Shown here: in pieces, positions 1,498-40,207 of the stretch
How positions within the stretch are numbered: position 1 is the first letter of the stretch
How the letters are laid out: every line of letters begins with the position of its first letter
Source of the DNA: a virus
IMG/VR virus record: IMGVR_UViG_3300006919_000089
Span: 1 to 49,093 of that record
Length of the DNA stretch: 49,093 nucleotides
Reading direction: 5' to 3' (one strand)
Translations under genes and position numbers: made by a program
Notes under the pieces: generated by a model
The model's input: only the letters and a program-made list of their open reading frames with translations
Databases searched by the model: none
Told to the model about the DNA's origin: nothing

Positions 1498-4400
1498 TTA
1501 GTATGTTTGCCTATACTTTGCAAGCAATGCAAAGATATTAAATTTTTCTGTGGTTTTTGCACTATATTTTATTTTTGCATACGTTCCTCTTGTTCTTCTA
1601 GTGCTTTTTTCCGTTCTTAAAGGGCCTTTTAACACTCCGTCTATATATTTGTGAGCTTTTAAGCCTCCTATTTCTACCCAATCAATTTCAAATTCAGACG
1701 AGTCATTATCCGAAAGATCTATTCTAATTGATCTTATTATACAATCGTCATAAACCCCATCAGCATCTCCAATGCCAGCCATATCCCATTCTAAAATAAC
1801 AAAATCATTATCTATGCCTGAAGGGTCTCCAATATTTTGTTTTCTAGTTCCACTAAAATTAAGATTAAAATAATCGCCTCGTTTTCTTCTAATTGGATCA
1901 TAGCCATTAAAATAAACATCGCCTTGCCAGCCGCCTCCATCAGTAATTCTTTTAACCTTCATCCTTACAAGATTATTATATTTTCCAGGAAGATTTATTG
2001 CTTCTCCACCGCGAGGACTAATAAAAACTTGGTCTGTTGCAAATACTAAATTAATAGTAGACTGCCCAAGATTTATAACAGGACTTGTATATACAATTGT
2101 AGCCGCGTCTACAAAATGCCACCCCTCTGCTGTGTCATCAAAATCCCATCTTTTGTTAATTATTAATTGTTCAGATTCGTCTAATAATTCAGTTTTAAAA
2201 TCTAAAACGTTTTTTGCTGTAATTGTATCATGACTTATATCTGTAGTATAATCTACAAAACTAAAATCTACATTCTTAGGAGTCATTATAACTTCAAAAT
2301 TGTCAAAAATTTTACTATCAGCGGCTTGTGTATTTATAACTTTTTCTATATAGCTAATTTCGGGAACATCTTTAGTTCCTGAAAATATTACATCATGCGC
2401 TGTATATGGATTACTATTAGCGTCTAATTCAGTATTTCCAGTTACAGGAGAAGTTATACTTATAGTTCTTTTGTGTACATCGTCTTTTTTACCAAAAAAA
2501 TGTAATTTCTTTTGTTCTTCATGAATATCCCAAATCCACAAAGCTAAAGGATTACACCTTCTTTTTCTATAATAAATACTATCCATAGGGCCGTATGCAT
2601 CATAAGGAATGTTAGTATAAGATCCGCTAAATCCAGTTGTAGCATCAAAGTTTGCAATAGAAACTACATTTATTTCATTTTCTGGACATATTAAAAAAGA
2701 CCCTTGGCTTCCTGTTAGCCATTGTGGTGGAGCAACACTATACTTAGAGGTAAAAGCATTAACAGCCTCACTATAAACCAATGTTTCTGATATTCCTACT
2801 GGTTCTCCATGTGTACTACTACCCATAGTATGATTGTCATGCGTTCTTGCAAATCTTTGCCTTTTACTATTTTTATTCACAAATGTAGAGTTATGAAATG
2901 TAACAAGAAGCTCTTTGTTTTTAAAATCATAAACAGATACTATACCTAAAAAACTTAAAGGATTATCAGATAAATAGTTTCTGCTTCCGTCTGGTTTTTC
3001 AAAACTATCTAATTCCCCTAAATAAGCATCATGAAAAACAGGAGTGTTAGCTGGATGAACAACATTATAAGAACCACCAGTACCACTATTTGAATTACAA
3101 ATTTTATATGCCCTTTGCTCCCAATCTTTAATTATATATTTTAAATAATTTCTTTGACCTAAAGCATCCCCTAATGAAATAAGTTTTTCTGTATCATATT
3201 TAAATAGTCTACCAAAATTACTATCAACAAAATACATAGACTTTTCGCTTAGGGCTACACTAAATCTGTGCCTTGTTCCATATTTAGTTGATATATAAAT
3301 ATGATTTTCTACGGTTTCTCCTGTACCAGTAAATAATGACGTTCCTGCATCATCACTTAACATAGATAAAGGATTTACAAGTAATTTTGCAAAAGCAGAA
3401 TCTTGTAATACATATATTTCATTTTTAAAATTTATTATTCTATTAATCTCCCCGTATAAGCCTTCCATATCATGGAATTGATTTATAGGAAATTGCCTAA
3501 AAGCATCTGCTGTTTGGCCCAATATTTTTGTATTAGAATAAGCAATTTCATATGGAAGATTTAAACTGTCATTAAAATTTTCTTCATCTACAACAAGCCC
3601 AGATTTAATTGTGTTTTGCTGAGAATAAACACTATTGTATAGCCAGTCATTACTATATGGAGCTTGATTCATATCTTTTCCTACAACAGTATCTCCAGCA
3701 TTTAAAGTTAATCCGCTTCTCATGTCTGTATTTACATATGACTCTATAGGAAAAACCTGAAATCTAGAAGCTGATTTTTTCATATAAGGACTAGATGTTT
3801 TTTGATGAGAATACAAATTAACAAATGTATCTCCGCCAAACACTTGAGATATATGCCCTTGACTAGAACCTACTGAATCTCCTACTGGATGAAAATTTCC
3901 ACAAGGAATATATCTAGTTTTGTCTATAGACCCTTTATTATATCCACCATAAGGAACTACGTTTCTTACAATAGAGCATAAGTATTTAAAAGGAACTCTA
4001 TCGCTTCCTGATGCGCCAACATGATCTCCTTCTCCGTGATCTTCAGTTCCTAAACTAGCTCCTCCAAAAGCTCTGGTAGATGGCCTGTCTATATAACCAG
4101 ACCTTATAGGGTAGTCAGCATAACTATTGTAGTTATTTGGAGTTATACTAGGGGCATAATTGCCATTTTCATCTAGACCTAACCAATGCGATTGAGTGTA
4201 TAAAGCAGAAACATTTATAGGTGCAAACCAAGAGGAGTAATAACGATCTGGTCTATATTCAAAATAAGAGTCACTTAGTGCGCCAGAGGTAATGTTATTA
4301 GTATTAGAATGCTTTCTAACTACAGAACACCTAGTATCCATTTCAATTAAAATACTTCTTAACCCCATTTGTATAGTAGATACAGTGTCATATGTGTAAT

Positions 4401-7400
4401 CTTCTTCAAGTACTGATGCTTTTTGAGGATCTGCCGCTGTAATTCCTTCATTTGCAGGAAGGGATGGTGATATAGCAGCAAAAACATGATATCTAGACCA
4501 AGTAGGAACATGGTGGTATAAAGCACAAAATCCTAAAGTATTATTAGAAAACCCAGAAACATGACCATCTTTAACTCTTTTAGATACTTTAAAAAAACCA
4601 TTTGGAACTATTTCTCCGTCAGAAATTTCTTTAGAGTTTGATATAGGTAATTGCCACCCATAATTATATTTTGGCCTACTATACATGTCTCCTCCATGAG
4701 AAGCGCCAGCAAATCTTCCTCCGTCTATTTCCATTCCAATACCAAAATAAGGATCATAAGAAACATATTTCCCTATAAGGATACTATAATCTTTATCTAT
4801 GTCTTTTCTTGTTGAAAAAGCTAAAGCCTCATTTAAAGTGCAATCTGTTTGCTGTGGCTCCCACCTCATTGTTTCACTATTACTTTCCCAACTATGAGTA
4901 TTTTCGCCATCATTATTAGCCGCCCCTCTTTTATCAACAGTCACGCCATTCCATCTACTAGAATAAGGATTGATTGTGCCAGGCTTATCTTTATATCTTA
5001 CTTCATTAGAAAGCTTTAAAACATCATCTATTCTTAACATATCTCCTTCCCTGTAAACATATGGTCTTATCCCAAATGCACTATCAGGAGCGTCTAAAGT
5101 AAACACACTACCACTTACTTCTTTTCGTGCTTTTCTTTGATAATGCTCTTCAAATTGGTTATTAGTAGGATTGACAAAAAAATAAGACAGTTTATCATGA
5201 CTTCCAAAATAACCAGAATGTCTGTAGTGCCTTCCAAATGTTCCAGGCCCGCTTAACCAAGGAATTATATTATTATCTCCCGTTGCTCTGGCGTGGTTAG
5301 CGCCACTCATAGCACTATTTATCTTTCTATCATCTTCTCTTTCTGGCCAATAAAACACTTTACCCGCTGTATTTCCTCCAGTTGTTGCCGTTCCATCAGA
5401 AACATTGTCATCAAAAAATGCTAGGTGAGAGTTTTCAGCAAGACCTAAATATCCGTTTAAATAAGTATCATATTCTGGTTGTTCTGGAAATGAAGGGGTT
5501 ATGTTTCCTCCCGAATTATCAATCCATTGATTTACAAAAACAGGATCTCCCCCAAAAGCATCATTGTCTTTATCAGAAAATCTAATTTTAGAATATCCGT
5601 ATTTTTGTCCTAATTTTGCGCTACCATATTGTACTGTTTGATTTAAAAGACCTTGTTGTACAACTCTTCTATCTTCTTCTTTTCTTTCTGCTCTTACAAC
5701 CCTAAATCCAGATATTTTTTTTACAACTTCATCAGGAATTATAAATTCAAAAGCTACATATAAATCAAATAAATGATGTGTATCATCGTGTGCAGCAGCT
5801 CCAGGTCCACCTCTATCTGCTTGATGCGCTGGAACAGCCCTTGCCCTACCTGCGGCACCTTGAGTTGCTGGATGGCCATTATTAGGAAGAACAGCATTTT
5901 GCTGACCATTAGAACGTATATACGCTTCTAATTTTTGTGTACTATTAGTAAGCCTAGCGCTAAACCATTCAACATCTGGGGGAGGAACAGTATGACCATA
6001 AATATAAGAAATTCTATGATCGTTTATCATTGCGTGCGAATGAATGTTTTGGGTACCAACTAATGAGTCCGTTCCACCAATCATCATATCTGTTGCTCTA
6101 AATGGACTATAAGGCAATGAAGTTACAGGAAGGTATGATCTTTTTATATTGACCATTCTTAAAATATCGTACTGATGTGGAGTTTCTATATCTCCAATCC
6201 ATAAAACATTTCCAGGAGATCCATTTAAATCGTAAGTTTGAACTCCAAATCTATAAACCTCTCCTCTTTGATAGCCTCGTTTATCTCCAGATAAATGCGG
6301 ATCTTTTGACCCTCCTAAAGACATAGATGTTTTAAATTTAGTATTACCTGATGAAGAAGAAACAAGACCATCACCAAGAAAATCTTGAAACTCAGTAACT
6401 AGCTCTTCTCCATTGCTAGTTGAAGATATAAAAGGGGCATTAAATGCGTTTTGAGATTGATCTCCTATTTTTTCTTGAACTCCAAATGATACACGACAAC
6501 CGCCTAATTCATTAGTTGCATAGTTAAAACTTTCTGCTCCACAAGTCATTCTATCAGCAAGATACTTGTAAGTAAGTTTATTGCAATATATTCCGCTTAC
6601 TCCTCCAGCGGTATTACTAGCACCTCCAGATCTTTGGTTTGATATAGCTGTTGTCCATAAAGGAACATTTTTTGTACCGTCATAATTTACATGATCTAAT
6701 TCTCCAGAAGCAGGATACATTCCATTTGGATCTCCTAAAAGCTCTCCATAACCACATGAAAAACCATAATCATCTGTTACACCATAATCATATATACCGC
6801 TATTAACTTCTGAGACAGTTCCACTAATTGATTGATAATGTTTAACCTGAGGGTCATTAGTAGTAAGTATTGCGTCTAGTTCATTTGCACCAGCATTAAG
6901 TCTATTATACCTCAAAGCTTTAACATTCCATTCTTTTTCAGAAATAAAATTTCTTTTTTGTCTTAAATTAGCTGCAAATAATATATTGTCTTTAATTGCT
7001 ATATCTTTACAAACATCAAAAGTATTAGACTCTATTAATATTTCTTCTAAACCATTGTCTATTTCGTTGTTCCAACTTGTATGCTGAAACGTAGATTTAG
7101 TGCCGCTTATTTGATTTCTTGCAATAACAGCAACTCTTGGGGGAAAATTTAATTCATCATAAAATAAAGCATACAATTCTATATAGGCAAAATTAACATC
7201 TATATCTTCAATATTAATTTGAAATCCTTGTGTTCCTAAATTTCCCTTTGGACCACCTGCATATGTAGTAGAGTTTCCAAAAGATTGATCTGAAACTTGA
7301 TACATATTACTAAGAGGGGAAAAGGTTGATTGCCCTCCATTATCATCAATGTATTTATAACAATATTGATAAACCCCTACAGGTAAAGACCCAAACAAAG

Positions 7401-26996: not shown

Positions 26997-27278
26997 ATGG
27001 AAACTATAGGAATCAGTTGCTCTTGCGGCAACACAGAAGGCTTTAAGCTTTCACAAAAAGCAGCCGAGTGTACGAGCTGCTCAACATTACATACTATCAC
27101 AGATGAACCAGTGTTCATCACACGTAGTATTACACCTTTACACATATTAGAACAACGTGCTAAAGAACAAGCATTTAGAGACATGATGGTCATGGGTTCA
27201 TTTGATATAAATGGAGACATAGCTGATTGGGCTACATGCTTTCAAACAGATCATCAACAATTTGGAGTGCCATTCTAG
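26997..27278 (+). CDS. Small zinc-ribbon-like early protein
   Basis: 93 residues, METIGISCSCGNTEGFKLSQK then ECTSCSTLHTI: a C-x-C-G pair and a C-x-x-C pair about 18 residues apart, as in a zinc ribbon. The rest is helical (ILEQRAKEQAFRDMMVMGSFD) and ends QQFGVPF. It is the first gene downstream of the candidate early promoter. A nucleic-acid-binding regulator is plausible but not shown. The start has the A/T-rich context aacaattactATGG used throughout this arm. Confidence 0.6.
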   Translation: METIGISCSCGNTEGFKLSQKAAECTSCSTLHTITDEPVFITRSITPLHILEQRAKEQAFRDMMVMGSFDINGDIADWATCFQTDHQQFGVPF

Positions 27279-27287
27279 GCATTCCAT

Positions 27288-27305
27288 TTTTTCAACTTAA
27301 TAATA
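27288..27305 (+). repeat. Leader element TTTTTCAACTTAATAATA, copy 2
   Basis: Identical to copy 1. Lies just after the stop of the zinc-ribbon-like gene and just before the structured element at 27315. Confidence 0.7.
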
Positions 27306-27314
27306 ACTAAACAT

Positions 27315-27433
27315 AAAGAATAGTGAATGGAGTGTGCACGCTCTCCTCTTCAGCAAGGACGAAAAGAGCCTTTAAAATACACTGCTGTTAACTCGTAAAA
27401 AATATGCGCACAGAGAGGGGTATACTATTCTTT
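27315..27433 (+). ncRNA. Structured intergenic RNA closed by a 10-bp stem
   Basis: AAAGAATAGT (27315-27324) pairs perfectly with ACTATTCTTT (27424-27433), and T's continue after it. Inside are a hairpin GGAGTG-TGCA-CGCTCT and a second arm in which CAGCA pairs with TGCTG and encloses AGG/CCT. The element fills the 204-base gap between two genes and ends in a terminator-like T run, so it could be a small RNA, a 3'-end structure or a cis-regulator. I do not recognise a known class. Confidence 0.6.
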
Positions 27434-27451
27434 TTTTTCAACTTAACAATA
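27434..27451 (+). repeat. Leader element TTTTTCAACTTAACAATA, copy 3
   Basis: One base different from copies 1 and 2. It continues directly from the T run of the structured element and leads into the gene at 27483. Confidence 0.7.
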
Positions 27452-27482
27452 ACTAACTTAATATTAATTAAAACAATTTAAA

Positions 27483-27857
27483 ATGTCAGAAACAAAAAAC
27501 ACGTTAGCACAAGGTATGTTTGTTAGAGAACATACATTTAATTCAGGAACTAAAGTTCTTAATGTATCTATCAATGTAGCAGATTTCTGCTCATTCGTTA
27601 AAGATAACATGAATGAAGACTCTAGTGGTAATCAATGGGTTAACCTAAAATTAATCCCTAACAAGAATGTAGGAGACAATAAACTATCTCATACACCTAT
27701 TCTTAATGATTATGTTAGAAAAACTGGAGAGCAAGCTCTTAACGCATTAGCAACTGAGGTTATTAAACCTAGCGTAGAAGAAAGAGTAATTGTAGAAACA
27801 CCTGAAACACAAACAGCAGGTAATACAAAAACGTTAGTAAAAGATTTACCATTCTAA
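27483..27857 (+). CDS. Early protein with SSB-like C-terminal tip
   Basis: 124 residues. A compact beta-type body (GMFVREHTFNSGTKVLNVSI, QWVNLKLIPNKN) is followed by a flexible linker and ends KTLVKDLPF. An acidic/hydrophobic D-L-P-F tip is the partner-binding tail of single-stranded DNA-binding proteins. The body is shorter than usual and I cannot identify a full OB fold. It could be a small SSB or a protein that mimics the SSB tail. The next gene starts on its stop (TAATG). Confidence 0.5.
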   Translation: MSETKNTLAQGMFVREHTFNSGTKVLNVSINVADFCSFVKDNMNEDSSGNQWVNLKLIPNKNVGDNKLSHTPILNDYVRKTGEQALNALATEVIKPSVEERVIVETPETQTAGNTKTLVKDLPF

Positions 27858-28093
27858 TGAGTATTCTAGGAATATCATTCTGTGCTGCCATAGGTTATTA
27901 TATCATAGTATATAAAGCCTTGGGCAGACGCAGATTAGTAAAGACTCAGACATTCTGGGACATACTATTTACATTACTACTACCTTTATTATTTATAGGT
28001 ACATTCAGCGGTCTAGCTACTGCTGTAGTTGCTGGTGTATTCTTTTCAATATTCACAGCTATGACTCCGTCAGTAGACGAGCCAACAAAATAA
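27857..28093 (+). CDS. Small membrane protein
   Basis: 78 residues with two hydrophobic segments: ILGISFCAAIGYYIIVY (3-19) and, after a basic loop (ALGRRRLVKTQ), FTLLLPLLFIGTF with GLATAVVAGVFFSIFTA. The ATG overlaps the preceding stop (TAATG), so the two are translationally coupled. A strong terminator follows. Function unknown. Confidence 0.65.
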   Translation: MSILGISFCAAIGYYIIVYKALGRRRLVKTQTFWDILFTLLLPLLFIGTFSGLATAVVAGVFFSIFTAMTPSVDEPTK

Positions 28094-28119
28094 AGAGAGC
28101 CCTTGTGGCTCTTTTTTTT
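28094..28119 (+). terminator. Intrinsic terminator
   Basis: AGAGCC-CTTGT-GGCTCT is a perfect 6-bp stem directly after the TAA stop, followed by eight T. It ends the 27483-28093 operon. Confidence 0.9.
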
Positions 28120-28156: not shown

Positions 28157-28540
28157 ATGGAAAAAGAAATCTATGAAATCTCTTCACAATACATGAAAGA
28201 TTTAAAAAAATTGCTTGATAACAAAAAAATATCACAATATGATATTGCACATCAATCATTTAGAAAGAACAATGCTGATTGGATCATTAAGCATGTTAAC
28301 AAAGCCAAATTAACTATTACATATCTTAATGGCACTACAAGAGTATTGCCTACATATACTGAGCTTATGAAAAGAGTTAACTGGAGTAATAATGATTATA
28401 AATCAGCTAGAAGAAAGTTTATTGCAAGATATTATAAAATAGTAAATGCTTTTACTAAGCATAAAAACAGATTTAAAAGAAACACTTTAGCTAATCGTTT
28501 TAATCCTAAGCAGATTAAACAGTTAGCATCACAAATATAG
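28157..28540 (+). CDS. Basic hypothetical early protein
   Basis: 127 residues from the ATG at 28157 (MEKEIYEISSQYMKDLKKL). An upstream in-frame ATG at 28103 would start inside the terminator and is rejected. The protein is Lys/Asn-rich and basic (RKFIARYYKIVNAFTKHKNRFKRN), with a helical N-terminus and a strand pair ITYLNGTTRVLP. Nucleic-acid binding would fit its charge but no family is recognised. Its TAG stop is the first part of the hairpin that starts the structured RNA array. Confidence 0.6.
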   Translation: MEKEIYEISSQYMKDLKKLLDNKKISQYDIAHQSFRKNNADWIIKHVNKAKLTITYLNGTTRVLPTYTELMKRVNWSNNDYKSARRKFIARYYKIVNAFTKHKNRFKRNTLANRFNPKQIKQLASQI

Positions 28541-28589
28541 TATAGGTGTAAATCACAAACCACGTATATGGTAGATGATTACTATACTA
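28538..28589 (+). ncRNA. Structured RNA array, element 1 (long hairpin)
   Basis: TAGTATAG (28538-28545) pairs with CTATACTA (28582-28589). Further pairs are TAaATCA with TGATTA (one bulge) and ACCA with TGGT around a 6-base loop, giving about 18 pairs in one interrupted hairpin. The upstream gene's stop codon is in the stem. No T run follows, unlike elements 2-4. Confidence 0.6.
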
Positions 28590-28598
28590 AAATAGGTT

Positions 28599-28667
28599 GG
28601 GAGTAGGTGCGTGTGGCCACGGAATGATAACTAACGCGTAGCGGTTATTACTACTCCCTTCCTTTTT
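28599..28667 (+). ncRNA. Structured RNA array, element 2
   Basis: GGGAGTAG (28599-28606) pairs perfectly with CTACTCCC (28651-28658), then TTCCTTTTT. Inside are CGTG-TGGC-CACG and ATAAC/GTTAT hairpins, so the element is a closed three-way junction. It shares boundary sequence (GGTTGG before, TTCCTTTTT after) with elements 3 and 4. Confidence 0.65.
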
Positions 28668-28678
28668 CTATAAAGGTT

Positions 28679-28742
28679 GGAGTCCACGCGTGTTAACTAA
28701 GGTCAGATAAAGCAACGCACTGATTGGGCTCCTTCCTTTTTT
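28679..28742 (+). ncRNA. Structured RNA array, element 3 with possible pseudoknot
   Basis: GGAGTCC (28679-28685) pairs with GGGCTCC (28726-28732, one G-T pair), then TTCCTTTTTTT. Inside, GCGT (28688-28691) can pair with ACGC (28715-28718), and TCAG (28703-28706) with CTGA (28720-28723). These pairings interleave, which is an H-type pseudoknot arrangement. Confidence 0.6.
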
Positions 28743-28752
28743 ATAAAAAGTT

Positions 28753-28813
28753 GGGGTGGCTTAACGAATAACCGAAACTCGGTACGGTAAACTAGCCACT
28801 CCTTCTTTTTTTT
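28753..28813 (+). ncRNA. Structured RNA array, element 4
   Basis: GGGGTGGCT (28753-28761) pairs with AGCCACTCC (28794-28802, one G-T pair), followed by TTCTTTTTTTT. Inside is ACCGA-AAC-TCGGT. The strong stem plus eight T's would also act as an intrinsic terminator just before the gene at 28835. Confidence 0.65.
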
Positions 28814-38511: not shown

Positions 38512-38810
38512 TGACAAAACATAATGAGCATTATTGGGAAGTGGGTAGAAATGGATATATTGCAAATACCACTGGAGATAAAAGAATACCATCTTATTAT
38601 ATAGGAAAGTATCATAAATACGAAGCTCGCAAAGTAGTAGAAGACTTTGATCTTTCGTATAACTGTGGGACAGCAGTCACATATATTTTGCGTGCAAAAC
38701 GTAAACATAAATCACCAATAGATTGCATTACAAAAGCAATAGCTCATTTAGAATTTGAATTAGAAAGATTAAAACATGAAAGTAAAGAAAGTAAAAAGAA
38801 AGACATTTAA
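38511..38810 (+). CDS. DUF3310-like protein
   Basis: 99 residues. The C-terminal half, YNCGTAVTYILRAKRKHKSP then DCITKAIAHLEFELERL, matches DUF3310: G-x-A-x-x-Y-I-x-R-A-x-x-K, then D-x-x-K-A-x-x-x-L-x-x-E-x. The N-terminal half carries EHYWEVGRNGYIANTTGDKR and a repeat of Tyr/Lys residues. Such proteins occur in many phages and may be linked to nucleotide metabolism; evidence for a specific role is thin. Overlaps the radical SAM gene by 35 bases. Confidence 0.65.
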   Translation: MTKHNEHYWEVGRNGYIANTTGDKRIPSYYIGKYHKYEARKVVEDFDLSYNCGTAVTYILRAKRKHKSPIDCITKAIAHLEFELERLKHESKESKKKDI

Positions 38811-39633
38811 AATTAGGCCTTCTGGTAGGTCAACAGATTTTATATCACCAAGCTTTGGTTATGGTTGCCTCTATAATTGTTCATACTGTTATATGAAGCG
38901 CCATATGCCTTTTGGTTTAGGTGTAGCAACTAATACAGAAGACATACTTACTGAAATAAACTCGCATGCAGCATTTGCACAAATAGAAAAACCTAATCAA
39001 ACGCATGAAAAATATATTACATACGATATAAGCTGCAATGAAGATTTTGCTTTGCACGCTAAACACCATGAGTGGGAAAAAATATTTACATTTTTTAAAA
39101 ATCACCCTGACATTATGGGTAGTTTTGCTACTAAATATGTAAATAAAGATTTGTTATATTTTGATCCTAAAGGAAAAATACGTATTAGATTTAGTTTAAT
39201 ACCGCAAAATAAAGCTGATTTACACGAACCAAATACATCAAAAATTATAGACAGAATATTAGCTATTGATGCTTTTACATTTGCTGGTTACGATGTGCAT
39301 GTAAACTTTAGCCCTATAATGGTGTATGATGGATGGCTAAATGATTATTTTGAATTATTTAGATTAATGGATAAGTATATAGAAATTAAAGAAAATGTTT
39401 TATCAGAATGTATATTTCTTACACACAACATAGAAAGACATACTTTAAATCTTAAAAACAATCCAAAAACAGAAATAGATTTATGGGTTCCTAATATACA
39501 AGAAACTAAAATATCAGAATATGGATGTGAAAATATTAGATATAATTACAAGTTAAAACGTGAATACATTAAACAATTTAAAGACTTACATGATAAGGTA
39601 ATACCTTGGAATAAAATTAGATATATATTTTAA
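38776..39633 (+). CDS. Radical SAM protein, spore photoproduct lyase-like
   Basis: 285 residues. SFGYGCLYNCSYCYMKRHMP carries the C-x3-C-x2-C iron-sulphur motif (Cys31, Cys35, Cys38) followed by Y-M-K-R, the form seen in spore photoproduct lyase (SplB) relatives. Further on: YDISCNEDFALHAKHHEWEK, MGSFATKYVNKDLL, IRIRFSLIPQNKADLHEPNT and YDVHVNFSPIMVYDGW, which also follow that family's layout. SplB repairs a UV-induced thymine photoproduct; the phage substrate is not known. It lies in the early arm, so DNA repair or modification is plausible. Confidence 0.78.
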   Translation: MKVKKVKRKTFKIRPSGRSTDFISPSFGYGCLYNCSYCYMKRHMPFGLGVATNTEDILTEINSHAAFAQIEKPNQTHEKYITYDISCNEDFALHAKHHEWEKIFTFFKNHPDIMGSFATKYVNKDLLYFDPKGKIRIRFSLIPQNKADLHEPNTSKIIDRILAIDAFTFAGYDVHVNFSPIMVYDGWLNDYFELFRLMDKYIEIKENVLSECIFLTHNIERHTLNLKNNPKTEIDLWVPNIQETKISEYGCENIRYNYKLKREYIKQFKDLHDKVIPWNKIRYIF

Positions 39634-39890: not shown

Positions 39891-40089
39891 TATAGAATAT
39901 ACAATTATGACAATAATTACAATAAGTTTAGCAATAGGTTTTATTATAGGATTTGCAACAGCTTTTATAATAAAAATAAAAGAATGTAAAGAACTAGAAA
40001 AAGAAATGGATAAATTTAGAGATTTATATTTTAATGAACTAGATAAATGGAGGGATAAATACACTGAAGATGATTATGAAGCGTATTAA
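39883..40089 (+). CDS. Small membrane-anchored coiled-coil protein
   Basis: 68 residues from the ATG at 39883 (MNNIEYTIMTIITISLAIGF), which overlaps the previous stop. A single transmembrane segment to about residue 32 is followed by a charged helix (ECKELEKEMDKFRDLYFNEL). An upstream in-frame ATG at 39838 would overlap the previous gene further. It is similar in plan to the 39635 protein. Function unknown. Confidence 0.55.
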   Translation: MNNIEYTIMTIITISLAIGFIIGFATAFIIKIKECKELEKEMDKFRDLYFNELDKWRDKYTEDDYEAY

Positions 40090-40207
40090 ATATATCTTAC
40101 ATAGATTAGGGTTTCATAATAAAAATTGTAGAAGAAGAGTCTATACTACAGAGCAAGATTATTTATGTTTAATAACGGGCAACACCCATAAAAAATTTGA
40201 ACTATGA
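40076..40207 (+). CDS. Very small hypothetical protein
   Basis: 43 residues: MKRIKYILHRLGFHNKNCRR, RVYTTEQDYLCLITGNTHKK, FEL. Basic N-terminus. It overlaps the end of the previous gene by 14 bases and the GroES-like gene as ATGA. The overlaps suit the run of coupled small genes. Confidence 0.5.
   Translation: MKRIKYILHRLGFHNKNCRRRVYTTEQDYLCLITGNTHKKFEL

Follow-up and report, generated by a model that had tools for sequence, protein, structure and literature searches.

The question raised by this locus is whether a 119-nt segment between two early genes of a phage is a structured RNA or a chance inverted repeat, and, if it is the former, what kind of element it would be. The DNA analysed (hereafter, the window) is a stretch of 49,093 nt and represents a fragment of a crAss-like phage (capsid protein against Pfam Crass_capsid, 2.7e-35), in which the portal and the terminase also matched phage families. 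Few viruses of Bacteroidota are as abundant as the crAss-like phages. The relatives of the window were IMG/VR contigs, several of them 65-67 kb long.

The element in the window

The segment, here named R1, is located in the early region of the window, on the + strand (Table 1). A preliminary description of the sequence had reported a perfect 10-bp closing stem with 99 nt between its arms and T's after it, two internal arms and the same leader on either side. All these features were found at the positions described, the internal arms corresponding to P2, P3 and P4, and the leader copies (at 27287 and 27431/27434) differing at one position (T/C). The accompanying statement that the element takes up almost the whole space between the genes was slightly overstated, as R1 accounts for 58% of the 204-nt gap (27279-27482), the remainder consisting of the two leaders and of the T-run that belongs to a terminator-like hairpin, part of which lies within the end of the upstream gene.

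Table 1. Features at and around R1; positions refer to the window unless another contig is named.
Feature	Position	Strand	Observation
R1, structured RNA element, 119 nt	27315-27433	+	covariance model score 110 bits; homologues in further crAss-like contigs
P1 closing stem, 5' arm AAAGAATAGT	27315-27324	+	pairs with 27424-27433; 10/10 pairs in 5/6 full-length members
P1 closing stem, 3' arm ACTATTCTTT, then T-run	27424-27433	+	
P2 hairpin, 5 bp, UGCA loop	27330-27343	+	both-side changes in 4/5 pairs
P3 5' arm CCUCU	27345-27349	+	partner 27416-27420 AGGGG; both-side changes in 3/5 pairs
P3 3' arm AGGGG	27416-27420	+	
P4 5' arm CAGC	27351-27354	+	partner 27384-27387 GCUG; CAGY/GCUG in 6/6 full-length members
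P4 3' arm GCUG	27384-27387	+	then UUAAC, kept in six full-length members (L019: AUUAAC)
P5 hairpin AAGG/CCUU, variable stem	27355-27372	+	by eye; inner segments; MFE folds of L034, L035, L048, L049
Upstream T-run and leader CAACTTAATAATAACTAA	27287-27314	+	
Downstream T-run and leader CAACTTAACAATAACTAA	27431-27456	+	
Terminator-like hairpin, end of upstream gene	27263-27286	+	terminator scan
Upstream 93-aa gene	26997-27278	+	conserved in relatives
Downstream 124-aa gene	27483-27857	+	conserved in relatives; C-terminus DLPF
Tandem array of four stem-closed RNAs (RH, RA, RC, RB)	28541-28808	+	
GG/CC and internal-loop end pattern	28594-28739; L004, L006, L028, L030, L033		

A 10-bp inverted repeat is by itself no evidence of such an RNA, because the window contains 11 perfect repeats of this length (spacer of 3-150 nt), fewer than the simulated 15.5 (sd 3.6), and one was present in 301 out of 5000 simulated gaps. 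The folding z-score of R1 in the window was only about -0.9, while values from -2.2 to -2.6 were obtained in four of five R1 members. Moreover, the gap segments containing R1 gave z-scores of -0.8 in the window and +1.5 in L019, and therefore R1 is not discoverable by folding energy alone. Judged by comparison between contigs, R1 is structured beyond chance, a conclusion that the window alone does not provide and that comes from the conserved architecture and the compensatory changes among its homologues.

Homologues and the conserved fold

The first homologues were recognized by eye (L003/L019) and by their end pattern (L034 and L035), followed by a scan with a two-gap pattern. A total of 11 stretches in the set viral_contigs presented this pattern, 8 of which were genuine R1 (7 full and 1 cut by the contig end), appearing in L015, L019, L034, L035, L048, L049, L050 and the truncated L046; L015 is a near-identical twin of the window, and the three remaining stretches (L044, L045 and L047) were not R1. 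The same pattern appeared in 26 stretches of the set genome_contigs, with the closing CTATTC within 260 nt in none of them (0/26). Altogether, and counting the window, R1 was found in nine IMG/VR contigs, comprising seven distinct sequences spread over three deeply separated crAss-like lineages. The terminases of L034 and L046, from the lineages where this could be tested, were 28% identical to that of the window, and a PolA-type polymerase was present in L035, L048 and L049. A covariance model constructed from five members, applied to 34 sources, recovered the held-out L019 (E 7.5e-7) and the truncated L046 (E 1.4e-5), with opposite-strand scores of at most 16.7 bits. The identity between members ranged from 51 to 73% in the model alignment, reaching 97% between L048 and L049. 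Thus, on the sequences compared, R1 is a previously unlisted structured RNA shared by very different crAss-like phages.

Further scans delimited the family. The scan that did not depend on P1 returned 14 stretches, 7 being known R1 members and 7 being new, none of the latter matching the model better than E 0.96, and therefore no variant P1 was found. The scan for the 3' end gave 7 stretches, of which 6 were known members and the other (L077) was a chance match inside a coding sequence. Named crAss phages were rejected as members, with a best E of 0.38 in 7 records. In addition, positions 5276-5351 of L003 hold a shorter RNA resembling the 5' half of R1 with a different 3' half (BLAST E 0.006-0.008; covariance model E 2.3), possibly a chimera.

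Covariance analysis, as suggested in the preliminary description, supported a structured RNA with internal arms, with the exception of P1. This stem was identical in five of the six full-length members and kept 8 of its 10 pairs in L019, with no compensatory change in any member, so its pairing is unproven by covariation because its sequence is nearly invariant. The sequence of P2, which has 5 bp (4 bp in L019), varied between most members, the pairing being always kept. Both P2 and P3 were maintained through double changes, and P4 through a change from C to U. The arms of P3 were CCUCU/AGRGG, extended to CCCUCU/AGAGGG in L048 and L049, from which all its double changes come; since these two contigs are near-identical, the changes may represent one event. 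In the six-sequence alignment, which was fitted to the covariance model and so leans towards it, 98.3% of the cells paired and double changes were found in 7 of the 20 pairs (14 cells). Neither the covariation score (0.410) nor the cell count was reached by any of 500 shuffles, and 11 out of 500 had at least as many doubly changed pairs, relatedness being not fully removed by these two controls. A plain MAFFT alignment of five members gave a similar covariation result, and RNAalifold, unaided, returned the same P1, P2 and P3. Furthermore, the wobble cells on the + strand comprised nine G-U and one A-C, which assigns the RNA to the early-gene strand.

Three unpaired motifs (GAAYG, UGCA and UUAAC) were also conserved. 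The length of R1 varied from 108 to 184 nt, with differences that were not all multiples of three, and no reading frame was conserved. A coding role was rejected: the window has a short ORF with its start at 27328, and by eye this frame meets an immediate stop in L034, is shortened in L035 and lacks its ATG in L019. Likewise, the P2 loop (GUGUGC) could form a pseudoknot with a downstream GCGCAC in the window and in L019 (the latter by eye), but inspection by eye did not reveal one in L034, L035 and L048, and it was dropped as a family feature.

Exchange of the gap content and competing readings

Of the 22 contigs compared, 16 had both flanking genes (93 and 124 aa), and R1 was found in only two of these 16 (the window and L019), being wholly absent in the other 14. 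The preliminary description had singled out a loss of the pairing in close relatives keeping the flanking genes as the result that would speak against the element. What disappeared was R1 as a unit, and where it was kept (L019), P2-P4 paired fully; R1 is thus lost or replaced as a whole, not decaying. Most of the 16 gap segments were stem-closed or otherwise folded, with z-scores from about +1.5 to -4.0. An ORF of at least 54 aa was present in the gap in L017, L027, L031, L032, L033 and L039, and almost nothing lay between the flanking genes in L011. L013, L027 and L030, with terminases about 91% identical to that of the window, differed in gap content.

The two flanking proteins of the window had no match in L034, L035, L046, L048, L049 and L050, and the neighbours of R1 differed between lineages. 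In L034, R1 directly follows another RNA family (R2) with no gene between them and lies upstream of an MKPM gene, while in L049 a gene of similar appearance precedes it. Across the contigs compared, R1 is therefore kept over long evolutionary distances and replaced over short ones. Its presence in 2 of 16 contigs, together with other neighbours elsewhere, indicates an accessory, exchangeable cassette and not a switch dedicated to its neighbour.

The reading that we favour, with a little more than even confidence, is that R1 is a free-standing structured early phage RNA, carried as an exchangeable cassette and acting in trans; the gain and loss of the unit and its differing neighbours speak more for an accessory RNA gene than for a one-neighbour switch. 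The element would accumulate as a discrete RNA from the early-gene strand, would act in trans and would most likely bind a protein or an RNA, of the host or of the phage, in host takeover or counter-defence, the latter being the guess most in keeping with an early, accessory and exchanged element. The direct leader repeats flanking R1 would allow homologous recombination to insert or delete the unit.

The foremost competitor, which we regard as rather unlikely, is that R1 acts in cis as part of an untranslated region of its own transcript, as a leader, a stabiliser, an autoregulatory site or a riboswitch. A gene closely follows R1 in all seven contigs with a downstream side (the window, L019, L034, L035, L048, L049 and L050, the twin L015 aside), so a leader role is possible. 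In L046, R1 is the first element after a consensus promoter, a 12/12 sigma-70-type match whose -10 box ends 18 nt before R1; this arrangement, a single consensus match within an A+T-rich stretch, also speaks for the free-standing RNA favoured above. Moreover, the 124-aa downstream protein of the window, with no family match, ends in DLPF, which we take to be an SSB-like tip, and autoregulation such as that of T4 gene 32 would be conceivable by analogy; the structure models of the 124-aa and 198-aa downstream proteins (pLDDT of 45.8 and 29.6) were too poor for an SSB-fold comparison. However, the downstream genes differ between lineages, 14 of the 16 contigs with the same downstream gene lack R1, no constant association with one gene family was found, and the arrangements in L034 (R1 stacked with another RNA) and L049 also disagree with this role.

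Regarding transcription, the window had neither a sigma-70-type promoter nor a TAnnTTTG box, the promoter element of Bacteroidota, within 120 nt upstream of R1. In the lack of a recognizable host-type promoter, R1 may be transcribed by read-through or depend on the leader. The leader (CAACTTAAYAATAACTAA) comes after T-runs and before both genes and R1, a position from which it may be a phage promoter or a processing signal. Two articles, as far as consulted, report that a virion RNA polymerase transcribes the early genes of phi14:2 (PMC8375218, PMC10136315).

It is quite improbable that R1 only marks a transcript boundary, serving as a long-range terminator or as a 3'-end protector together with a spacer and having no specific partner. 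The closing stem does run into a T-run in the window and in L019, and relatives fill the same gap with other folded segments, but the terminator scan did not list R1 (the nearest terminators being at 27263-27286 and 28092-28116) and P1 has 2 G-C among its 10 pairs and encloses 99 nt. Nor is the T-run conserved: no run of at least five T's directly follows P1 in L034, L035, L048 and L049, where four T's (L035, L048 and L049) or four T's, an A and three T's (L034) were found. By these features R1 is not of the intrinsic terminator type, and the conserved unpaired GAAYG, UGCA and UUAAC would be unexpected of a spacer. Finally, a DNA-level element (a recombination, packaging or regulator site made of inverted repeats) is hardly credible. 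In several members P2 does form a palindrome, perfect or nearly so, and the sequence of P1 scarcely varies, but the excess of G-U over A-C wobbles is that expected of RNA from the named strand, and a DNA site would not readily account for the nesting of P1, P3 and P4 around variable inserts.

Other early-region RNAs and known systems

The preliminary description had suggested that R1 may be the same kind of RNA as an array at 28538. This was correct in so far as both are stem-closed RNA cassettes of the early region, but R1 is not homologous to any RNA of the array: the seeds of R1 and of the array matched no common site, and the R1 model had one significant place in the window. The array consists of four different RNAs (28541-28586, 28594-28665, 28674-28739 and 28749-28808), and RH, RA, RC and RB each had their own distribution among the relatives. 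Furthermore, the families R2, R3 and R4 also cross the R1-bearing lineages, as R5 probably does, and another family (RD) recurs in the gap between the 93-aa and 124-aa genes. A TAnnTTTG box shortly precedes RD in L010, L019, L030, L031, L032 and L039, and was not present before it in L017, L022, L028 and L029. In those six contigs with the box, RD is pseudoknot-like, with a GTGCTA/TAGCAC pairing (by eye) and a terminator-like hairpin of its own.

Several side observations were made on these regions. Several otherwise unrelated RNAs share a 3' pattern (by eye), in which an internal loop UU (or UC)/UU separates an outer GG/CC pair from the stem immediately ahead of the T-run; it may serve as a shared signal for processing or binding. 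The RG family (L013 and L030) has the closing stem AGAAAGGAGG/CCTCCTTTCT, presumably resembling the 3' end of 16S rRNA and its complement, a likeness that could be due to chance in a purine/pyrimidine terminator stem. The candidate R6 (window 40088-40207) was rejected as a shared RNA for being a short coding gene; the 45-aa frame at 40070-40207, with the motif NCRRRVYTTEQDYLCLITGNT, is conserved in L034, L010 and L046 as a small early protein. A spore photoproduct lyase-like gene (window 38776-39633) showed about 70% nucleotide identity with L049, which suggests exchange between lineages. In the cultured crAss-like phage phi14:2 (L082), positions 4031-4500 hold an early-region tmRNA with the tag GSSVQKLAMVA, amid long non-coding early-region stretches whose ORF annotation was withdrawn.

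A broader proposal, put forward tentatively and with less confidence than the reading of R1 itself, is that crAss-like phages may share many small structured RNA genes as a repertoire passed on by horizontal exchange and shuffled among early-region slots, the gap between the 93-aa and 124-aa genes being one, like protein anti-defence genes in other phages, with R1 as one counter-defence or host-takeover RNA. Structured RNAs of phages are already known, and no description was found of RNAs exchanged as a repertoire between early regions of crAss-like phages; in the parts of a review and a genome survey covered by term search, non-coding RNAs are not mentioned. The occurrence of R1 across lineages with 28% identical terminases, and of other folds in the same gap of close relatives, suggests a layer of RNA genes missed by ORF-based annotation. 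Should the targets of R1 be host defences or the programme of early transcription, a route to test host takeover would be open, for example in the cultured relative phi14:2.

Surveys of microbiome and marine sequences, as far as consulted, have listed candidate structured RNAs, some of them near phage genes in Bacteroidetes (PMC8040213, PMC2864571). Those candidates resemble R1 in being structured RNAs with no function assigned, and no Rfam family matched R1. Within the literature searched, the supplementary motif lists of that survey lying outside it, no RNA of the R1 type was described. Rfam release 15 gave 0 matches in the window at the curated gathering cut-off and, at lax thresholds, nothing at R1 nor in L034, L049, L013, L030 and L022, and ARAGORN found 0 tRNA or tmRNA genes in the window. 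With a conserved RNA structure and no conserved reading frame in the sequences aligned, R1 would be classed as a phage-encoded structured non-coding RNA.

Among known RNAs, Y RNA is about 100 nt long with its ends paired in a closing stem, as the 5' and 3' ends of R1 are in P1. A TROVE protein would be the most tempting partner of R1, because crAss001 is reported, in the part of the article consulted, to express such a protein early (PMC8375218). This idea was rejected, as a TROVE gene was found in 0 of the 18 records searched, many of them fragments. The packaging RNA of phi29 is a compact branched RNA, expressed early, essential for packaging and forming multimers through loop-loop contacts. 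By analogy, the self-complementary UGCA loop of R1 could kiss, but the phi29 RNA is essential, whereas none of the 8 window-type records searched (G001-G008, some being fragments) gave a significant match to R1. Finally, the stable RNAs C and D of T4 are phage-encoded, structured, roughly 100-150 nt long and of unknown function. They sit in the T4 tRNA cluster, whereas the window has no tRNA, and they are likened to R1 by type, as phage-encoded structured RNAs of similar size.
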